A stretch of DNA of 33,122 bases from Thiotrichaceae bacterium (lineage in GTDB: Bacteria > Pseudomonadota > Gammaproteobacteria > Beggiatoales > Beggiatoaceae): NCBI GenBank assembly GCA_029939505.1, contig JAOZSV010000023.1:2583-35704 (forward strand), written 5' to 3'. Of this stretch, positions 8,496 to 31,403 are shown in pieces. The stretch's first letter is position 1. Each line of letters begins with the position of its first letter. A program made the translations under genes and the position numbers. The notes beneath the pieces are model-generated. The model did not search any database, was not told where the DNA came from, and saw only the letters and a list, made by a program, of their open reading frames with translations.

Positions 8496-8858
8496 GTTCA
8501 GGTAAATCATTTCCAAAAACCTGTCAGGTTTGGTGTGTGAAATATCTGAACATATAGAATGCGAATTAAGAGTTGAATTTTTTTAAAATGGAACTCGAGG
8601 TTTTAGTTTTTTGAAAAAAAACTAAAACCTCGAAAACGCTTTATGTTGTTGGAGTACAACGCTTTAGCTTTGTTGTTGGAATACAACACTTTAGCTTTGT
8701 CAGTCCGCCCAAAGCTGAAGCGTTTTCGAGGTTTAAGTTTTTTAAAGAAAAACTTAAACCTCGAACTCCTATTTTAAGTCTTAATTCGCATATAGAGGTT
8801 CAGGTAAATCACTTCCAAAAACCTGACATGTTTGGTGTGTGAAATGATTTATCTGAAC
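8496..8858. repeat. Two direct copies of a ~55-60-bp imperfect palindrome bracketing a family F element
   Basis: Copies at 8496-8550 and 8798-8858 both start GTTCAGGTAAATCA, contain CCAAAAACCTG and TTTGGTGTGTGAAAT, and end ATCTGAAC. Their ends are complementary, so each can fold. The family F element lies between them. A further relative, GTTCAGATAAAT...ATTTATCTGA, is at about 13153-13184. Confidence 0.75.
8559..8791. mobile_element. MITE-like family F element with 5-bp target duplication
   Basis: The element runs from ATGCGAATTAAGAGTTGAAT to its inverted partner ATTTTAAGTCTTAATTCGCAT. ATAGA occurs immediately on both sides (8554-8558 and 8792-8796), as expected for a 5-bp target site duplication. 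The interior of about 190 bp contains two family B hairpins (8596-8632 with GTTTTAG arms, 8727-8763 with GTTTAAG arms) and three family A boxes. It encodes no protein, so movement would need a transposase supplied elsewhere. Confidence 0.8.
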
Positions 8859-12708: not shown

Positions 12709-12745
12709 ACGTTGGAAAATCTCCTGTTATAAATTTAAATAAAAA

Positions 12746-12847
12746 GAGGTTCTTGCAAAACTCTGAACACACGAGGTTTAAGAAATCCGATTTTTTCAAA
12801 AAATCGGATTTCTAAGGCTAAAAACAGTTTTTGCAAGAAAGAGCCTC
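12746..12847. mobile_element. Short family H element
   Basis: The left terminus GAGGTTCTTGCAAAACTC and right terminus TTTTTGCAAGAAAGAGCCTC bound about 100 bp around a perfect family C hairpin (GAAATCCGATTTTTT / AAAAAATCGGATTTC). AAAAAG occurs at both ends (12741-12746 and 12848-12853), consistent with a short target duplication. It lies just upstream of the minus-strand secreted-protein gene. Confidence 0.7.
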
Positions 12848-12942
12848 AAAAAGATAATTTTATCAAAAAATGATGATATAAGTGCTGAAGCATAAATTAT
12901 TGAATATTTTATTCGCCGCTAAGAGTTTTTTGAAAAAACTTG

Positions 12943-13121
12943 ATTCGAGGCTAAAGTTTTTTTGTAACTACTCAGCCTTGAGATTGCAAGGCTAACAGCT
13001 AAAGCAGGCTAAAGCCTGCTAATTCAGATAGTCTGCTTTAGCCAAACTTTAGCTTTCAGCCTTGAAATTGATTTCAAGGCGGAGTAGTTACGTTTTTTTA
13101 AAGAAAAAACTAAAACCTCGA
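12943..13121. repeat. Palindrome nested inside a palindrome
   Basis: The left half of a family B hairpin (ATTCGAGGCTAAAGTTTTTT, 12943-12963) is separated from a right half (AAAGAAAAAACTAAAACCTCGAAT, ending about 13121) by a 128-bp palindrome. That inner palindrome is bounded by GTAACTACTC and GAGTAGTTAC (12964-13091) and contains further inverted pairs: GCCTTGA...CAAGGC at both ends and AGCAGGCTAAAGCCTGCT in the middle. It appears to have inserted into the loop of the outer element. Confidence 0.8.
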
Positions 13122-13527
13122 ATTCTAAATATCCGAAAATTTATGGTTCAGTACATAGATGTTCAGATAAATAATGATCATGATTTATCTGACAATCTAT
13201 AGTATGAGTTTTAGACTTTCGTTTCCGTATAAATTGCGAGGCGAAATGACGCGCAATTTAACGTTGAGAACAGAAATCTCGGATTGACGCACTGAAAAAT
13301 TAAATTCATTGTAAATCAGTTGCTTAAAAATTCACGACTCAATCAAGTGAAATTTAAAACAAATAAAATCAAATAGTTATATATTTTATGCGTCAGTTTT
13401 AAAATTGATCAGTTCATTTTTTTATGGTGATAATTAGCAATGTTGATTTTAAAATAATAATAATTTAATATAAATAACAATTATTTTATTGATTACTTTT
13501 AATATTAAATATTGGGAACTAAAAAAA

Positions 13528-14166: not shown

Positions 14167-14535
14167 TTATAAAAATTTGAGTCATGTTCGAGGCTCAGTT
14201 TTTCTTTAAAAAACTTTCGCCTCGAATGCTTTGGGCGTTTATTGGAGAGACACACGGCTATGTATGCATTGAAAATGGAGTACAACGCTTTAGCTTTGTA
14301 TTTTGGAGTACATTCGAAGTTTGAGTTTTTCTTCAAAAAACTCAAACCTCGAATGCTTTAGCTTTGTCAATCCGTCCAAAAAACGCCCAAAGCTGAAGCG
14401 TTTTCGAGGTTTAAGTTTTTCTTCAAAAAACTTAAACCTCGAACTCCATTTTTAACTCTTAATTCGCATTAGGTGTCTCTACATCTTTGGGCGTTTTTGC
14501 TTTATCACTAAAAGTTTTTAGGAACAGGTTTTTCA
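14167..14535. other. 369-bp gap filled with family A, B and F repeats
   Basis: No gene is seen. A family F right terminus (AACTCTTAATTCGCAT) ends at 14470, and a shortened left terminus (ATGCATTGAAAATGG) starts at 14264. Between them are two family B hairpins (14315-14351, GTTTGAG arms; 14405-14441, GTTTAAG arms) and family A boxes. Another B hairpin at 14189-14224 has mismatched arms (GGCTCAG against TTTCGCC). Outside the element, AGAGACAC and GTGTCTCT face each other at 14246 and 14474. Confidence 0.75.
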
Positions 14536-18540: not shown

Positions 18541-19440
18541 ATGAAACAAGTCGCTCCATTACGTTACGATGTCATATTCAAAAAAGCCTTTTCTGTTCCA
18601 GAAATATTCACCGCTTTTGTCCGTGACTTTGTGGGCATTGAAATTGAAATTGACATAGTCGAAAAAGATAAAGTCTATGATCCACCCATCGGCAGTGTCG
18701 CCACCAAATTTGATCTCTATGCGGAGGACAAGAAAAACCGGGTCATTGTCAATATAGAACATGAAGGTTATCTATCTGATTATGATCGTGCGATATATTC
18801 CCATGCCGCTTTATTAACGCAGAAAACCGACAACAGAAATCTTGATCATCCTGAATGGAAAATATTTACATTGGTGGTTTTTACTTCTGCTGATAAGCAT
18901 CAAACCGATATCTCCATCACTGAACTTACCCCCAAGAATTTGAAAGGTGAACCGTTGGAAGAATCGCATTACAAAGTCATTTACATTTGTCCTAAATATC
19001 TTAAAGACGATACGCCTGAAGAATACCGCGAATGGATGGAAGCAATAGAAGACACTCTGGATGAACAGGTTGATGAATCGCATTATACCTGCCCAGAAAT
19101 ACAACGTATTTTTAAACTGATTGAGAAAGACAAAGTCACTCCCCAAGAACGGGCTAAAATGTTCGATGAATATAGCATGGAAGCCGTGAAACAAGAAAAA
19201 ATCCAGAAAATAAAGGAAGAAGCTCGGAAAGAAGGCAAAGAAGAAGCTCGCAAAGAGGCTCGCAAAGAGACAGAAAACGCTCGCAAAGAGGCAGAAAACG
19301 CTCGCAAAGAGACAGAAGCAATTCGTAAGACAATAGAAGAAACTGCCCGTAACTTGTTATCTATTGAAACATTTACAGAGGAACAGATAGCACAAGTAAC
19401 CGGGTTGACTTTGGAAAAAGTGAAAGCACTTAAAGTTTGA
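18541..19440 (+). CDS. Rpn-family recombination-promoting nuclease / PD-(D/E)XK transposase-like protein
   Basis: This 299-aa protein has the N-terminal nuclease-like domain of the Rpn/PDDEXK_2 family. It starts with LRYDVIFKKAFSVPEIFTAF. The active-site region TKFDLYAEDKKNRVIVNIEH carries Asp58, Glu73 and Glu75. The helix DYDRAIYSHAALL follows. The second half (about 210-270) is a highly charged coiled coil of repeated ARKE and ENARKE units. The C-terminus SIETFTEEQIAQVTGLTLEKVKAL is the usual tail of this group. Relatives occur in many copies in Beggiatoaceae and cyanobacteria. E. coli RpnA-type proteins are Ca2+-dependent DNases that promote RecA-independent recombination. It is intact and has AGGAAAT just before the start. 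No mobile-element ends are seen around it. Confidence 0.8.
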   Translation: MKQVAPLRYDVIFKKAFSVPEIFTAFVRDFVGIEIEIDIVEKDKVYDPPIGSVATKFDLYAEDKKNRVIVNIEHEGYLSDYDRAIYSHAALLTQKTDNRNLDHPEWKIFTLVVFTSADKHQTDISITELTPKNLKGEPLEESHYKVIYICPKYLKDDTPEEYREWMEAIEDTLDEQVDESHYTCPEIQRIFKLIEKDKVTPQERAKMFDEYSMEAVKQEKIQKIKEEARKEGKEEARKEARKETENARKEAENARKETEAIRKTIEETARNLLSIETFTEEQIAQVTGLTLEKVKALKV

Positions 19441-22990: not shown

Positions 22991-23040
22991 TAATTAATTG
23001 AAAAATGGTGCCGTTTCACTCACCTACGCTTACTGAGTCA

Positions 23041-23165
23041 TGTAGGGTGGTTTCGAGGTTTTAGTTTTTTGAAGAAAAACTAAAACCTCGAAAACGTCTT
23101 TTTGTTGTCCACCACTTTTTTAATGAGGAAGCCGTTGCACGAAAAGGACTTTGCCCACCCTACAT
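23041..23165. repeat. Family I repeat split by a family B hairpin
   Basis: TGTAGGGTGG at 23041 and TTTGCCCACCCTACATGA near 23150-23167 are the inverted ends of a family I repeat. A complete family B hairpin (23054-23090, CGAGGTTTTAG / CTAAAACCTCG) sits inside its left arm. After it, the sequence resumes with ACGTCTTTTTGTTGTCCACC. Confidence 0.75.
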
Positions 23166-23218
23166 GACTTAAAACAAGCGTAGCTTGCTTAAAGACGTTG
23201 CCTACCTGGCTTGCTTCA

Positions 23219-23557
23219 TCACAATAATGGTCTTGTAACCCGTATTAATTGATTGTCTAATTGCTGTACCTCTCTAATTTGTTCATCAATTCTTTGAGCT
23301 AATTGTTGGTAATCCTTATTGTGAGTACATGAAATAATGCCGCTATGCTCATTATTTGTATGTAGCCTGTAAAAATCCTTGTGATTGTGCGTCAGTATCA
23401 CACGCATTTCAGAAACGGCATAAACCAATTGCGCTTTATCATCAGTTCCTTTTCCAGCTTTTCCGATTTCTTGAGTGGTTTTGATGTCATACCCCATTTT
23501 CCTTAATATTTTGACAGCAAGGTAATTAAAATCTTCATCGGCATAAAGTTTAATCAT
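23219..23557 (-). CDS. DUF5615-type PIN-like toxin
   Basis: This 112-aa protein starts MIKLYADEDFNYLAVKILRK, the characteristic N-terminus of DUF5615 PIN-like proteins, with the acidic ADED metal-binding cluster. Further acidic positions are in GTDDKAQLVYA and THNHKDFYRL, where H-x-x-D-F is typical. The predicted activity is Mg2+-dependent RNA cleavage, by family inference. It overlaps the upstream antitoxin gene by 4 bp (ATGA), a normal toxin-antitoxin coupling. Length is usual and no frameshift is present. The target RNA is unknown. Confidence 0.8.
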   Translation of the reverse strand: MIKLYADEDFNYLAVKILRKMGYDIKTTQEIGKAGKGTDDKAQLVYAVSEMRVILTHNHKDFYRLHTNNEHSGIISCTHNKDYQQLAQRIDEQIREVQQLDNQLIRVTRPLL

Positions 23558-23922
23558 AAACCATTCTCTTCTTCAATTTCTTGATCTATTTCATTTTGAT
23601 AAAGAGCATAATACTTCCATGCTGCTTTTAAATCCGATTGCTTAAGACTCGGATAAACTTCTAAAAGTTCGCTATCAGACGTGTCTTCTTGCCGATATTG
23701 TACCAAGCTCCTGACAGGAATGCGGGTATTGCGAATATGTGGACTACCGCCACAGATTCCCTGCGTTTTTTGAACCAAGTGGTTATCCTTGTTTTGAGGA
23801 TATACATCTTGAAAAACACGATTTTTGAGAGATAAAACGAAATCTAGCGTTTTTTCAAGTTTTTCGATTGAAAGATTATGAATTTCGTGTAAGAGTCTAT
23901 TTTCTATTTCAACTTGATTCAT
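23554..23922 (-). CDS. DUF433 antitoxin with extended N-terminus
   Basis: This 122-aa protein has a DUF433 domain at about residues 52-108 (GICGGSPHIRNTRIPVRSLV, then SELLEVYPSLKQSDLKAAW), a helix-turn-helix-like DNA-binding antitoxin fold. The first 35 residues (ENRLLHEIHNLSIEKLEKTL, then DFVLSLKN) resemble a DUF2281-type N-terminus, so it seems to be a fused or extended antitoxin. AGGGAGGA lies 8-9 bases before the start, the best ribosome-binding site in this part of the window. It precedes and overlaps the DUF5615 toxin gene. Autoregulation of the pair is likely by analogy with type II systems. Confidence 0.8.
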   Translation of the reverse strand: MNQVEIENRLLHEIHNLSIEKLEKTLDFVLSLKNRVFQDVYPQNKDNHLVQKTQGICGGSPHIRNTRIPVRSLVQYRQEDTSDSELLEVYPSLKQSDLKAAWKYYALYQNEIDQEIEEENGL

Positions 23923-24022
23923 TGATTTTATCCTCCCTTGGTATTAGCAATGATCGTAGCGAAGTTACCGCGTTGATCGCAGCGAAGCGGTGTTAGTTTA
24001 TCCAAAACAGAGTTTGGGAACG

Positions 24023-24182
24023 GTAACTACTCAGGGCTACTCAGGGCAACCATAAAGGATTGCCCCTACAACATTTCAGCCTAAAGTTTTTCTTCAAAAA
24101 ACTTTAGGCTGAAATATTCTTAATACGGACGAAAATATTCTGATGTAGGCTGCACCCCCTTGTGGTTGCCCTGAGTAGTTAC
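24023..24182. repeat. Family D palindrome containing a family B-like hairpin
   Basis: Termini GTAACTACTCAGGG and GGTTGCCCTGAGTAGTTAC bound 160 bp. In the middle, ATTTCAGCCTAAAG and CTTTAGGCTGAAAT (24073-24115) form a hairpin with the TTTTTCTTCAAAAAA loop of family B but lacking CGAGG. The left arm is partly duplicated (CTACTCAGGG twice). Confidence 0.85.
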
Positions 24183-24333
24183 TGGGAACGAATAGTTTAT
24201 TTTCTATTTCAACTCATTACCTTTAGATTAGCAGGGCAAAATGATGTGTTAGTATAACACGCCCTTCGGAAAAATAAAAGCCCCTACTGAGTCTGCTTAT
24301 AGCATTTCCTTTTTGAGTTAAATACATCATTTT

Positions 24334-24556: not shown

Positions 24557-27500
24557 ATGATGAACATTCCCAATTACAAAAATATTAAACTCATTTACGA
24601 AAGTAGCAACTCTTTCGTTTTTCGTGCGATAAATAAGGATAATCAACAGGTTATCCTCAAGATGTTTAAAGAAAATTATCCATCGCCTGAGGAATTGACG
24701 CGCTATCAGCAAGAATATGACTTCATGCGCCGCCTAGCCGATTTGGATGGCGTTATCAAAGTCTATCGCCTCGAAAAATATCAAAAAACACAAATGATAT
24801 GTTTAGAAGATTTTGGTGGCGAGTCTTTAAAGTATTGGCTAACAATGCGTTCCTTTAGTCTGGATGAATTACTTCGCCTTGCTATTCGTCTCAGCGATAT
24901 TTTGGAAGAAGTACATAAAAAACATATTATTCATAAGGATATTAATTCCACCAATCTCGTTTGGAATCCTGTGACTGATGTACTGAAAATAATTGATTTT
25001 GGCATTTCCACCAAATTATCACAGCAACAGATCACGTTTAAAAACCCCAATTTTTTAGAGGGAACTTTAGCCTACATCTCCCCAGAACAAACGGGGCGGA
25101 TGAATTGCGCTTTGGATTATCGCACTGATTTTTACTCACTGGGGGCAACGCTTTACGAATTATTTACTGGCGTTGTGCCTTTTAATGCGACAGAACCGAT
25201 GGAATTAATTCATTGTCATCTCGCCAAACAACCCGTGCCGCCTTTTGAATTGATGAAAAGGGCAAAAGAACAGGATTTGATAAAAGGGGTAAAAAAAGCG
25301 ATTTCTGCTATCATATTGAAATTATTAGAAAAAACAGCAGAAGATCGCTATCAAAGTCTCTATGGACTTAAAACCGATCTTCAGGAATGTCAGCTTGCTT
25401 TGTCTGAAGGTAAAACACTTGACTCTTTTACTCCGGCTCAAAACGACATTTCTGCTTCCTTTCAAATTCCGGAAAAACTTTATGGGCGTGAATATGAAAT
25501 AAAAACCTTACTCGCCGCTTTTGAGCGCGTGGCGGGCAGTTCCTCATCAACAAGGAGCCAAACCTCAGAGGTTTCTAAAACCTCTGAGGTTTTTCGTGAA
25601 ATGAGCCAAACCGAGGTTTTTCCTGAAATGAGCCAAACCTCAGAGGTTTCTAAAACCTCTGAGGTTTTTCGTGAAATGAGCCAAACCGAGGTTTTTCCTG
25701 AAATGAGCCAAACCTCAGAGGTTTCTAAAACCTCTGAGGTTTTTCGTGATAAAAGCGAAATCCTGTTAATCACTGGTGATTCAGGTATTGGTAAATCGGC
25801 ATTGGTTAAAGAAGTGTATAAATTGCTCACAAAAAAACGGGGCTATTTTATCACCGGAATTTTTGACACATTTCAACGCAATATTCCTTACAGTGCTATC
25901 GTTACCGCTTTTGAAGAATTAGTGCAACAACTCCTGACGGAAGGCGAAACGCAATTAGCACAATGGAAAGAGAAATTATTAGCCGCCCTGGGTAGTAATG
26001 GACAAGTCATTATTGATGTCATTCCAAAGATGGAACGGATTATTGGGCAACAACCGGCTCTCCCTACCTTAGAAATAACAGAATCTAAAAACCGTTTTAA
26101 CTTGGTTTTTCAAAACTTTATACGGGTATTTTGTCAACCTGATCATCCCTTAGTGATTTTTTTGGACAACTTGCAATGGGTAGATTCGGCAAGCCTGAAA
26201 TTATTAGAAATGGTGATGATGGATAGGGATACTACCACCCTATTCTTGATAGGGGCTTATCGGGATGTTGAACCAAATCATCCTTTAATGATGGCGTTTG
26301 ACGTACTCCATAAAGAAAACGTGATCATTAATCAAATCACCTTAAAGCCTTTAACTTGTGAAGAGATTAATCAATTAATTACAGAGAGTTTGCATCAAAA
26401 AGCAGTGGATTCACTAACCAACGTGGTGATGCGTAAAACAAAGGGCAATCCGTTTTTTGTGAATCAATTTCTTCACAAATTGGTTGAAAACAAATTACTC
26501 CATTTTGTTTCTAAAAGAGGCACTTGGGAATGGGATTTAGAAAAAAATGAGGCGGTGAATATCACCGATAATGTGGTGGATTTGATGATTTGTCAATTGA
26601 AAAAATTGCCTCAATCAGCGCAGCACGTTTTACGTTTAGCGGCTTGTGTGGGTAATTATTTTGATTTGGATACCTTATCTTTCATTTATAAAAAGTCGGT
26701 TTCCGACACTTTCAATGATTTGATGCCGGCGATGATGGAAGGAATTATTTTATCCACCACACAATTGGAAATCATGATTAAAGAGGAGAATTCGCCTTAT
26801 ACGATTCGCCATTTCCAATTTCTCCATCATCGTTTTCAACAGGCGGCTTATGCCCTGGTTGATGAGGTTAAGAAAAAAGCGGTGCATTTACAAATAGGGC
26901 GTTTGTACCTTCAAAATATCCCAGACGAAGCGTTAGAAGAACAAATTTTTCATATTGTTGGACAACTTAATCTTGGCTTTGAATTGGTTGAGGAAGATTC
27001 ACTGCAATTAAAAATGGTTCAATTGAATTTGAAGGCGGGAGAAAAAGCGAAAGAGGCCACAGCTTATGCTGCTGCTAAACAATATTTTAGCTTTGGGCGG
27101 AAGATATTGCAGAGTCAACTTTGGGAAGAGCATTATGACTTAACTTTTGCTTTATACAAGGAGGAAGCAGAAGTGGAATATCTCAATGGTCATTTTGAGC
27201 AGTCAGAGGCTTTGATTCAAGAGATACTGGTTCAGGCTAAATCGCCATTGGAGAAGGTGGAAATTTATAGAATGCTTGTGGTTCAATATACCATGAAAGG
27301 GGAATATGTCGAAGCGGTTAAAATCGGGAGAGAGGGGTTACGGTGCTTAAATATTGATTTACCAGAAAGCGATTTCAAAACCGCTTTTAAAAAAGAAATG
27401 GCTAAAGTCAATCTGGGCAACAGAACGATTGGCTCACTGATTCACCAAGATAAAGTCACCAATCGGGAAATTATCCTTGCCATCAGATTATTAAGATATA

Positions 27501-30500
27501 TGGCTATCCCCGCTTATTTTTTTGATCAGGATATCTGGTTTCTTCTGACGATGAAAAATGTCAATTTATGTCTAACGTATGGACAAGTACCAGAAACGCC
27601 TCCCATTTTCTGTGCTTATGGTATTATACTCGGCACTATTTCCAGAGATTATCAAGCGGCTTATCAATTTGGTTTGGTTGCTATTGAAATCAGTGAAAAG
27701 CTCAATCGTTACAAATGCCAAACCAAAGTCATGATGGGTGGTTTTTTGATGCCCTGGGTAAAACATATCAAATATAGCATAGCGGTGATTGATGAGGGGT
27801 ATCAAGCGGGGCTGGAATCGGGTGATTTACAATATGTTGGTTATTTGATGATTTTGCAGCTTTTTAATCGGTTCTATCAAGGTGACAATTTGCAAAAGAT
27901 TTTATCAGAGATTTCAAAGGGGTTGTCTTTTAACAGAAAAGCCAAAAATCCATTTCCAACGAATCTGATATTAGGCTTTCAAATGTTCGTTTTCAATTTA
28001 ACGGGATTGACAGAAAGTCGAGAAGATTTTCATAATGAAGACATGAGTGAAGCGCAATATTTGGAGCAGAACAAAAAACATCAAAACATTCTATGTTACT
28101 GTTTTATATTGAAATCTCAAATCTTTTATCTCTATGGTGAACCTGCCAGCGCAATTCAGTGCGCTATCGAAGCCGAAAAGCGACTTGATTTGATTCGTGG
28201 CGTTGTCACGCTCGTCGATAATCACTTTTATTATTCACTGAGTTTACTTGCTCTCTACCCCACCGTTTCTGCGGAAAAACAGGTAGAATATTGGAATAAA
28301 GTCGAAGAGAAGCAAAAGCAGATGAAAATCTGGGTTGATCATGCTCAAGAAAATTTCTTACACAAATATCAATTAGTCGCTGCTGAAATCGCCCGTATTT
28401 CTGGCAAAGATTCAGAAGCGGTTTTTCTCTATACCCAAGCGATAGCTTCTGCTAAGAAAAATGGATTTGTCCAAGATGAAGCATTGGCTAATGAATTAGT
28501 TGCCCAATTTTGGTTAGCTAAAGGCTTTGAGCAGTATGCCAATATCCATCTCTGCGAAGCGCATTATGCTTACCAGCAGTGGGGGGCAGTGGCTAAGATT
28601 GCGGATTTTGAGGAAAAATACCCCTTGTTAGCACTATCCTCAACGCCAGTTTCAACGCCAGTTTCAACTTCCACCGTTTTAAGAACGCAAAATTTTTCGC
28701 TATCGACTCAAACGACTTCCAGTTACTTAGACTTAAATAGTATGGTGAAAGCGTCTAATGCCCTGTTAGGAGAAATCGTTTTGAGTCGTTTATTAGAAAA
28801 AATGATGCAGATTGTCATTGAAAATGCTGGGGCAGAAAAGGGCTTTTTGCTACTACCACAACAAGATAAGTGGTTTATTGAAGCGGAAGGGCATGTTAAT
28901 AGCACTGATGTGACTGTCTTGCAATCCATCGCGCTTGAAAAAAGTGAGCAAGTTTCGGGCAATATTATTCACTATGTTGCTCATACTCAAGAAGAGATCG
29001 TGTTGCACGATGCCACAGAATCTAGCCACCATTTTACCCACGATCCGTACCTCGTCAAATTCTGCCCAAAATCGGTATTATGTGCGCCGTTGATCAATCA
29101 AGGAGAGTTAACAGGTATTTTGTATTTAGAGAACAACTTGATGACAGGCGCATTTACACAAGAAAGGTTGGAGGTGTTAAATCTGTTATCCTCGCAAATC
29201 GCGCTCTCTATTAAAAATTCATTATTATACAATAACTTAGAAGACAATGTTGCAGAACGTACTCGTGAACTGGCGCAAGAAATCGTCGTCAGAAAAAGCG
29301 CAGAGAAAGCGGCTAAAGTGGCGAACAAAGCGAAAAGTGCTTTTTTGGCGAATATGAGCCATGAACTTCGCACGCCACTTAATGCGATTTTGGGCTTTGC
29401 CCAAATTATGACTCGTAGCAAAAAACTTGATCATGAAAACCAAGAAAATATCGGTATTATCAGCCGTAGCGGCGAACATCTTCTGACACTCATTAATCAA
29501 GTACTTGATCTGACAAAGATTGAGGCGGAACGGATTACCCTTAATGAAATCCAGTTTGATTTATACCGTTTGTTGGAAGATTTAGAAGATATGTTCAATC
29601 TTAAAGCAGATGATAAGCATTTACAATTGATTTTTGAGCGTGAACCATCCGTTCCACAATATCTTCTTGGTGATGAAGTGAAATTACGGCAGGTGTTGAT
29701 TAATTTGCTGAATAATGCCCTTAAATTTACTCAAGAGGGCGGTGTGATAGTGCGTGTGGCGGTTTCTGAAGAAGGCAAGTCCATTTCTCAACTTCACTTT
29801 GAAGTCGAAGATACGGGACCCGGGATTGCATCCAATGAGTTAGATCAACTTTTTGAAGCCTTTGTGCAAACGAGTACAGGCAAACAAACTTCTGAGGGAA
29901 CCGGCTTGGGTTTAACGATTAGTCGTCAATTTGTCCAATTAATGGGCGGAGAGATGATTGTGAAGAGTGAAGTTGGGCGTGGCACGACGTTTGAGTTTAG
30001 CCTGCCATGTCAATTAGCGGATGCGAGTGAACTTAAAAAAACGACTTCTAAAAAACAAGTGATCGCTTTGGTGCCAAATCAACCCCGCTATCGGATTTTG
30101 GTTGTAGATGATAAATGGGCAAGTCGGCAATTGTTGATCAAACTGCTTAGTCCTCTTGGCTTTGAGATTCAGGCGGCAGAAAATGGTCAAGAAGCCATTG
30201 AGATTTGGGAAAAATGGCAACCACATTTGATTTGGATGGATATGCGGATGCCAGTGATGGATGGCTATGAGGCGACTCAGCGGATTAAGGCTCAACTTTC
30301 AGGACAAGCAACGGCTATCATCGCCCTGACAGCCAGTGCTTTAGAAGAAGAACGGGCAATTGTTCTTGACGCGGGTTGTGATGACATGTTACGGAAACCC
30401 TTTCAGGAAAGCAATATTTTTGAAGTCATGCACAAACATCTTGGGGTGCGTTATATTTATGAAGAGGAGATTGCCGAACCAGAAAACGAGGAAGAGATTA

Positions 30501-30712
30501 AAATCCCAAATCTCGCGGCTCAAATGGCTAAATTACCAGAATCTCTATTCGTACCACTTCAAAATGCCATCGAATGCGCGGATTTACAAGCCATGAAGCC
30601 GCTTATTGAGCAGATAAGTGAAAACGATAAACCATTGGCTAAGACATTGAATAAATTGGCGAAGAATTTTCGTTTTGATATACTTCAAGAAATTCTTGAA
30701 GAAATGGTTTAA
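24557..30712 (+). CDS. Trifunctional Ser/Thr kinase / AAA ATPase / GAF hybrid histidine kinase
   Basis: This 2051-aa cytoplasmic signalling protein has no membrane segment. The Ser/Thr kinase domain (about 8-270) has Lys35, HKDINSTN with Asp128, DFG at 147 and SPEQTGRMN. An AAA/NACHT-like ATPase (about 310-700) has Walker A GDSGIGKS at 407 and Walker B VIFLDNLQWVD near 535. A long TPR-like helical region (about 850-1380) is followed by a GAF domain (about 1408-1550), a coiled coil and a HisKA domain with His1602 (MSHELRTPLNAI). The HATPase domain (about 1705-1817) has NALKF, DTGPGIA and GTGLGL. A receiver domain (about 1845-1958) has Asp1895, and a short helical tail ends the protein. This architecture is the cyanobacterial Hstk-type family. 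A 25-residue repeat at 334-398, derived from a palindromic DNA element, interrupts the ATPase just before Walker A. The start may be either of two adjacent ATGs. The stimulus is unknown. Confidence 0.92.
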   Translation: MMNIPNYKNIKLIYESSNSFVFRAINKDNQQVILKMFKENYPSPEELTRYQQEYDFMRRLADLDGVIKVYRLEKYQKTQMICLEDFGGESLKYWLTMRSFSLDELLRLAIRLSDILEEVHKKHIIHKDINSTNLVWNPVTDVLKIIDFGISTKLSQQQITFKNPNFLEGTLAYISPEQTGRMNCALDYRTDFYSLGATLYELFTGVVPFNATEPMELIHCHLAKQPVPPFELMKRAKEQDLIKGVKKAISAIILKLLEKTAEDRYQSLYGLKTDLQECQLALSEGKTLDSFTPAQNDISASFQIPEKLYGREYEIKTLLAAFERVAGSSSSTRSQTSEVSKTSEVFREMSQTEVFPEMSQTSEVSKTSEVFREMSQTEVFPEMSQTSEVSKTSEVFRDKSEILLITGDSGIGKSALVKEVYKLLTKKRGYFITGIFDTFQRNIPYSAIVTAFEELVQQLLTEGETQLAQWKEKLLAALGSNGQVIIDVIPKMERIIGQQPALPTLEITESKNRFNLVFQNFIRVFCQPDHPLVIFLDNLQWVDSASLKLLEMVMMDRDTTTLFLIGAYRDVEPNHPLMMAFDVLHKENVIINQITLKPLTCEEINQLITESLHQKAVDSLTNVVMRKTKGNPFFVNQFLHKLVENKLLHFVSKRGTWEWDLEKNEAVNITDNVVDLMICQLKKLPQSAQHVLRLAACVGNYFDLDTLSFIYKKSVSDTFNDLMPAMMEGIILSTTQLEIMIKEENSPYTIRHFQFLHHRFQQAAYALVDEVKKKAVHLQIGRLYLQNIPDEALEEQIFHIVGQLNLGFELVEEDSLQLKMVQLNLKAGEKAKEATAYAAAKQYFSFGRKILQSQLWEEHYDLTFALYKEEAEVEYLNGHFEQSEALIQEILVQAKSPLEKVEIYRMLVVQYTMKGEYVEAVKIGREGLRCLNIDLPESDFKTAFKKEMAKVNLGNRTIGSLIHQDKVTNREIILAIRLLRYMAIPAYFFDQDIWFLLTMKNVNLCLTYGQVPETPPIFCAYGIILGTISRDYQAAYQFGLVAIEISEKLNRYKCQTKVMMGGFLMPWVKHIKYSIAVIDEGYQAGLESGDLQYVGYLMILQLFNRFYQGDNLQKILSEISKGLSFNRKAKNPFPTNLILGFQMFVFNLTGLTESREDFHNEDMSEAQYLEQNKKHQNILCYCFILKSQIFYLYGEPASAIQCAIEAEKRLDLIRGVVTLVDNHFYYSLSLLALYPTVSAEKQVEYWNKVEEKQKQMKIWVDHAQENFLHKYQLVAAEIARISGKDSEAVFLYTQAIASAKKNGFVQDEALANELVAQFWLAKGFEQYANIHLCEAHYAYQQWGAVAKIADFEEKYPLLALSSTPVSTPVSTSTVLRTQNFSLSTQTTSSYLDLNSMVKASNALLGEIVLSRLLEKMMQIVIENAGAEKGFLLLPQQDKWFIEAEGHVNSTDVTVLQSIALEKSEQVSGNIIHYVAHTQEEIVLHDATESSHHFTHDPYLVKFCPKSVLCAPLINQGELTGILYLENNLMTGAFTQERLEVLNLLSSQIALSIKNSLLYNNLEDNVAERTRELAQEIVVRKSAEKAAKVANKAKSAFLANMSHELRTPLNAILGFAQIMTRSKKLDHENQENIGIISRSGEHLLTLINQVLDLTKIEAERITLNEIQFDLYRLLEDLEDMFNLKADDKHLQLIFEREPSVPQYLLGDEVKLRQVLINLLNNALKFTQEGGVIVRVAVSEEGKSISQLHFEVEDTGPGIASNELDQLFEAFVQTSTGKQTSEGTGLGLTISRQFVQLMGGEMIVKSEVGRGTTFEFSLPCQLADASELKKTTSKKQVIALVPNQPRYRILVVDDKWASRQLLIKLLSPLGFEIQAAENGQEAIEIWEKWQPHLIWMDMRMPVMDGYEATQRIKAQLSGQATAIIALTASALEEERAIVLDAGCDDMLRKPFQESNIFEVMHKHLGVRYIYEEEIAEPENEEEIKIPNLAAQMAKLPESLFVPLQNAIECADLQAMKPLIEQISENDKPLAKTLNKLAKNFRFDILQEILEEMV
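25556..25749 (+). repeat. 75-bp in-frame repeat made of palindromes inside the kinase gene
   Basis: Units start at 25556, 25631 and 25706 (the last partial). Each contains AACCTCAGAGGTTT, then CTAAAACCTCTGAGGTTT, a near-perfect palindrome, followed by ACCGAGGTTTTTCC. They read in frame as SQTSEVSKTSEVFREMSQTE plus VFPEM. Copies are identical at DNA level where they overlap. The layout equals the intergenic family E palindromes with CTCAGAG in place of CTGACAG. Confidence 0.95.
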
Positions 30713-31208: not shown

Positions 31209-31288
31209 CTTACAACTCAGCCTTGAAATCAATTGCAAGGCTGAAAGCATTCGAGGCTAAAGTTTTTCTTCAAAAAACTTTAGCCTCG
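31209..31288. repeat. GCCTTGAAATC palindrome followed by family B hairpin
   Basis: TTACAACTCAGCCTTGAAAT, then CAATTGCAAGGCTGAAAGC, forms a small hairpin similar to the ends of the nested element at 12964-13091. A perfect family B hairpin with CGAGGCTAAAG / CTTTAGCCTCG arms follows (31252-31288). Both lie in the divergent promoter region between dksA and the efflux adaptor gene. Confidence 0.85.
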
Positions 31289-31403
31289 AATAGTCTGTTA
31301 AAACAGACTAATTAGAGTTTAGTAAAAATTCGTTTATTTCGTTAATTCGCTGTACTATTAGCATATCAACCTCAACAACATTGCATTAATTATACCATAA
31401 AAC

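Follow-up and report, generated by a model that had tools for sequence, protein, structure and literature searches.

The window, a 33,122-bp stretch of DNA, covers positions 2583–35704 of contig C151 in a fragmented 5.58-Mb assembly of 497 contigs (genome G000). The conserved gene adjoining the nested repeats described below encodes a protein with 96% identity to its counterpart in Thiomargarita sp. RS_2_10, the sister genome (taken to be G002). Loci sampled from G000 (numbered with the prefix L) comprised 1.616 Mb or 29% of the genome, and approximately half of this sequence was picked for matches to the elements A or B, making the sample non-random. An Rfam search of the window returned no RNA families. 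Elsewhere in the window, an ORF at 18541–19440 showed weak likeness to an Rpn-family recombination-promoting nuclease/putative transposase (TIGR01784, below cut-off), and a 2051-aa protein encoded at 24557–30712 combined an N-terminal Ser/Thr kinase with a C-terminal hybrid histidine kinase and contained an internal SQTSEVSKTSEVFREM repeat. Two small overlapping ORFs on the minus strand (23219–23922) were toxin-antitoxin-like, presumably of the DUF5615/DUF433 type, and had no match in NCBIfam. Hairpins were dense: the 1.6-Mb sample contained 839 (~519 per Mb) with a stem of 13 bp or longer, and their families included TCGAGG, AGAAATC, AAACCTC, ACCTG and AGAAACC.

Anatomy of the nest and order of insertion

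A preliminary description of the window placed a 128-bp palindrome between the two halves of a family B hairpin at 12943–13121, and that arrangement was found as stated, with the same start and with an end 2 bp further on, at 13123. The left arm of B (ATTCGAGGCTAAAGTTTTTTT, 12943–12963) finishes in 8 bp that constitute the left copy (12956–12963) of a target-site duplication, GTTTTTTT. This is followed by A, most likely an IS66-type MITE, which occupies 12964–13091, ends in GTAACTACTC and GAGTAGTTAC and folds end to end, then by the right copy of the duplication (13092–13099) and the right arm of B (AAAGAAAAAACTAAAACCTCGAAT, 13100–13123). The copies of GTTTTTTT on both sides of A match perfectly over 8 bp and lie inside the loop of the TTCGAGG hairpin B. 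A third layer, missed in the preliminary description, was a further repeat, at ~12875–13202, into which the B at 12943 had been inserted. This host repeat, T, is an outer composite insertion with TATAAG...TATAG ends and its own AGAAACC-type hairpin.

The expectation that a relative order of insertion could be read from the nest held. At the orthologous locus of RS_2_10 (contig L081), the flanks aligned at 97% on both sides, and window positions 12741–12847 and 12875–13202 were wholly missing, leaving a locus empty of all three layers. A paralog at L218:4845–4963 had this host repeat and a whole B, and no A. At L034:11245 the host repeat had no B, and its sequence was AAAAAACTCG-GTT-TCTAA, as opposed to AAAAAACTTG-[B]-TCTAAAT in the window; relative to this copy, B replaced GTT in an arm of T's own hairpin. 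Together with the 8-bp duplication of A inside B, these copies show that the host repeat arrived first, that B then entered the arm of its own hairpin, and that A came last, in the A/T-rich loop that B provided. The other segment missing from RS_2_10, at 12741–12847, is a 107-bp insertion with GAGGYTCTTGC ends and a flanking direct repeat, AAAAA(GA), which encloses a AGAAATCCG hairpin and is a further MITE-like family.

Two more nests had been proposed in the window, and both were recovered. A second A element of 160 bp (24023–24182), flanked by the 8-bp target duplication TGGGAACG (24015–24022 and 24183–24190), contains a 43-bp B-like hairpin of family F (TTTCAGCC..GGCTGAAA, 24073–24115), and a junction related to this hairpin, at L126:5291, had 3 bp (AAT) replaced. 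In the reverse direction, a B hairpin (23051–23093) splits a family I inverted repeat (AGTCATGTAGGGTGG/CCACCCTACATGACT), which had been noted at 23041–23165 and extends over 23036–23169. This B is located in the arm of the repeat rather than its loop, and comparison of the paralogous junction L109:2005 with L100 showed replacement of GCA.

Element A and the IS66 family

Element A is of the non-autonomous DDE type: it is bounded by GTAACTACTC ends that match those of IS66-family elements in relatives, and it duplicates 8 bp of its target. Near-exact A ends occurred 10 times in the window compared to 0.73 expected, and exact ends occurred 235 and 246 times genome-wide compared to 14 and 9 for reversed-pattern controls. 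A total of 40 A end pairs in the 1.6-Mb sample were flanked by an 8-bp duplication (30 exact and 10 with one mismatch), and flanking exact repeats of other lengths were found once or twice each at 4–7 bp and never at 9 bp or more; five control end sequences gave no pairs with an 8-bp duplication in the same sample. The targets were A/T-rich 8-mers. Copies were gene-free, 26–299 bp long and often fully palindromic, with several unrelated kinds of interior, among them a minimal palindrome of 26 bp and, at the other extreme, tandem repeats. The 26-bp element at L031:14956–14981 (GTAACTACTCAGCCTTGAGTAGTTAC), unusually small for a transposed unit, had a perfect 8-bp duplication, and palindromic versions of 44 and 48 bp also occurred. 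Orthologous A insertions with 8-bp duplications were present in RS_2_10.

The transposase behind A was sought through PF03050, the IS66 domain. In G018 (L147), a 1250-bp element with A-type ends and the 8-bp duplication CATTTGAC contained PF03050 remnants, and in G025 (L139) a PF03050 ORF terminated within GAGTAGTTAC. The search of G000 gave no matches to a PF03050/IS66 gene, an absence weakened by the fragmentation of this assembly into 497 contigs, and because no IS66 gene was found there, the mobiliser of A was deduced from relatives. A distant IS66-like gene in the sister genome was rejected as the parent of A, as its own flanks were without GTAACTACTC and the A-type ends on its contig belonged to neighbouring A copies. 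Four contigs of G009 (C223, C338, C357 and C450) began with a common 13–14 bases followed by GAGTAGTTAC; this assembly is broken there by a multicopy element that bears the A end sequence and may be an intact relative. A genome from another family of the same class (G033) had 74 and 54 GTAACTACTC ends, no B hairpin and no PF03050 match.

IS66 family ends begin GTAA, and A shares with this family and its derived MITEs the GTAA ends, the 8-bp direct repeats and, in relatives, PF03050 within A-type ends. It differs in the 26–299 bp size of its copies, in their geneless, unrelated and often fully palindromic interiors, and in that no IS66 gene was found in G000. Members of the IS66 family have been reported to generate 8-bp direct repeats (PMC3281130). 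A would be moved in trans by an IS66 transposase making an 8-bp staggered cut.

Element B and its 3-bp replacement

B is a ~41-bp perfect palindrome with loops of T and A runs. The strict pattern TTCGAGG-N6-T5...A5-N6-CCTCGAA occurred 909 times in G000, 570 times in the sister genome and 30 times in another species of the genus (G001), and was absent from most other relatives; a reversed-pattern control had 0 occurrences, and B was not found in a plasmid collection. Both arms were identical over 16 bp in 343 of the 363 sampled copies, a figure somewhat inflated because detection required paired arms. Between randomly chosen copies, 2.26 of 16 positions differed, and changes at the variable positions affected both arms together. 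In the A-interrupted B at 12943–13123, the arms came from different B subfamilies, with CTAAAG on the left and TTTTAG on the right, and homogenisation of the arms may have stopped after the loop was interrupted.

Empty sites were searched for by removing the hairpin and matching the two 20-bp flanks elsewhere, which yielded 114 unique B junctions with a matching empty site. Untrimmed, the flanks were separated by 3 target bases in 65 of the 114 and by 5 in 24; the outermost pair of the hairpin belonged to the target in most of these 24. After such target-derived pairs were trimmed, exactly 3 bp were replaced in 89 junctions, which were collapsed to 38 distinct target sites because paralogous empty sites are not fully independent; the other 25 were without an exact 3-bp replacement. 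Of 566 trials with pseudo-elements placed beside real B copies, 16 recovered an adjacent flank, and there was no peak at 3. The sister genome yielded 13 B junctions with an empty site, and 12 of them had exactly 3 bp replaced. Only two filled/empty pairs were orthologous, with TGC replaced at L160/L238 and ATA at L170/L108. Within the window, the B at 31249–31291 replaced TAA, as judged from an exact empty site elsewhere whose 40 flanking bp contain no mismatch. GGA was replaced both by the B at 14403–14443, in a TTGGACTCC repeat for which L112 has an exact empty site, and by the B at 8725–8765, in a TTGGACTCC-type repeat with an empty site in L122. No target duplication, whether of fixed length or of the AG/ACT type, and no conserved motif in the target flanks were found at the B junctions; outer triplets varied, as did the outermost inserted base pair, giving ends of 7 or 8 bp. 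Overall, B is a palindrome separate from A that produces no target duplication and mostly swaps in for exactly 3 bp of target.

The AGAAATC, AAACCTC, ACCTG and AGAAACC hairpins were rejected as mobile bare hairpins. They had 0–4 empty sites each and no 3-bp peak, and thus look like parts of larger repeats; since these four families were almost without empty sites, the 3-bp result is not general to hairpins.

A two-state comparison alone gives no polarity and palindromes are prone to deletion, so that B might be immobile and the empty sites precise deletions of an ancestral hairpin that left 3 bp behind. We consider this scarcely credible, as the three bases of the empty sites correspond to the consensus of the surrounding repeats, the contexts of B are many and unrelated (A elements, family I and other B copies among them), and ~900 copies in one species, when a second species of the genus has 30 and most relatives have none, require spread.

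How B spreads is a more tentative matter. We propose, as a possibility that falls short of probable, that it uses an undescribed integration chemistry in which a folded hairpin, defined by its pairing to a greater degree than by the sequence of its ends, is substituted for exactly 3 nt without duplication. Speculatively, B would travel as a folded single-stranded hairpin with its two ends side by side at the foot of the stem, a width that would approximate the length of three nucleotides, and the ends could bridge a single-strand gap of 3 nt and be joined there, after which replication would fix the insertion. Such gap bridging would account for the absent duplication, the constant loss of 3 bp, the perfectly matching arms and the ends that vary by 1 bp. 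If true, this would make B transposition distinct from the DDE, HUH, serine, tyrosine and retro-mechanisms in their known forms. Candidate enzymes are a Y1 HUH transposase or one that makes a 3-nt staggered cut that is trimmed, and each of these also underlies a rival explanation.

In the first, B is REP-like and moved single-stranded by a Y1 HUH transposase (TnpA_REP or IS200-like), consistent with the three Y1_Tnp (PF01797) genes in G000 and with a short palindrome without target duplication, as single-stranded transposition predicts. We regard this route as rather unlikely: there was no conserved tetranucleotide at the hairpin foot, the outer bases varied and the flanks were motif-free, and no B lay beside the two Y1 loci of G000 that were examined. 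Y1 elements are not known to remove target bases. The arms of B are also perfect, whereas E. coli REPs are reported to need a bulge in the stem (PMC8266576). In the second, B is a DDE-type MITE for which a 3-nt staggered cut was trimmed rather than filled, leaving a 3-bp deletion instead of a duplication. The replaced length is exactly the duplication size of several IS, and the TTCGAGG ends form terminal inverted repeats; however, the junction set contained no fixed direct duplication, the outermost inserted base pair varied between 7- and 8-bp ends, and the arms matched throughout, beyond the ends. This explanation, too, we hold to be rather doubtful. The 3-bp rule itself is directly open to test with the more than 100 empty/filled B pairs available.

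Probable chance nesting and known systems

The preliminary description had suggested targeting, either of hairpin loops or of one element by the other. This would be expected if a transposase recognised extruded cruciforms, with a preference of A for B loops and of B for A loops, and the presence of three nests in one 33-kb window appeared to favour it. A insertion points were rebuilt as empty sites and scored against AT-matched intergenic and genome-wide sites. Three of the 40 A sites lay at palindrome centres, compared to 2.97 expected from AT-matched intergenic sites and 2.44 genome-wide, and A was found inside B/F hairpins twice, compared to 1.65 expected by area and 1.85 with A/T matching. 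The reverse nesting, B/F inside A, was slightly over-represented (9 observed versus 4.8 expected, P = 0.056), and several of these were inherited copies of one nested unit. B avoided palindrome centres (2.9% of its sites versus 7.0% of 4200 matched intergenic sites) and was located in the arms of repeat I and of T's hairpin. The catalogue of junctions against an A/T model that had been suggested as a check thus gave no excess of A at hairpin loops in the 1.6-Mb sample. These results largely refute cruciform or loop targeting, which we judge to be highly improbable. The preference of A for A/T-rich 8-mers and the T/A runs in the loops of B are enough to explain A in B, and nesting, which reflects crowding, was no commoner than density and A/T content predict, although with 40 A sites a weak preference is compatible with the counts. 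The locus as a whole is very probably the product of two unrelated mobile palindromes, an IS66-type A and a 3-bp-replacing B, that were inserted in the order host, B and A and nested by chance in crowded, A/T-rich intergenic DNA.

If so, one abundant MITE type of Thiomargarita, a giant sulfur bacterium, can be tied to an IS66 parent, and the idea that hairpins attract hairpins is replaced by a measured null. Flood et al. 2016 reported abundant MITEs in Candidatus Thiomargarita nelsonii, one of them TATAG-ended, and no parent IS (PMC4853749). The hupL and dsrA-intron MITEs of that organism come from the same genus and are likewise abundant, intergenic and palindromic; the dsrA MITE has the TATAG ends seen in host repeat T, and the hupL MITE differs in having 10-bp repeats and a 19-bp inverted repeat (PMC4853749). 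Neither a GTAACTACTC element nor an analysis of nesting nor a replacement of 3 bp is described in the accessible portions of that paper (PMC4853749).

A fixed 3-bp target replacement by a hairpin element was not found in a limited search of partly available, non-subscription literature. B is a mobile palindrome with hundreds of copies and an exact 3-bp substitution footprint unlike standard transposons; it differs from a classical MITE in that it lacks a target-site duplication and replaces 3 bp of target. REPs mobilised by TnpA_REP (RAYT) are, like B, short intergenic palindromes with hundreds of copies, but B is without the GTAG/CGTC tetranucleotide, has perfect arms and makes a fixed 3-bp replacement; a tetranucleotide tag is reported for REPs (PMC3733652, PMC8266576). 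Rickettsia palindromic elements (RPE) are also bacterial palindromic insertions that spread as repeats, but are often within genes. B may also bear on the long-open question of how small hairpin repeats spread in bacteria and mitochondria. The yeast mitochondrial GC clusters and the Allomyces/sponge hairpin elements are, like B, mobile palindromes of ~40 bp (PMC4478555, PMC2800124). The GC clusters (GC42) duplicate AG or ACT, unlike B (PMC4478555), and the Allomyces elements resemble B in being without flanking duplications (PMC2800124). Both groups differ from B in being organellar rather than bacterial, and the available portions of these sources report no fixed target loss for either (PMC4478555, PMC2800124).
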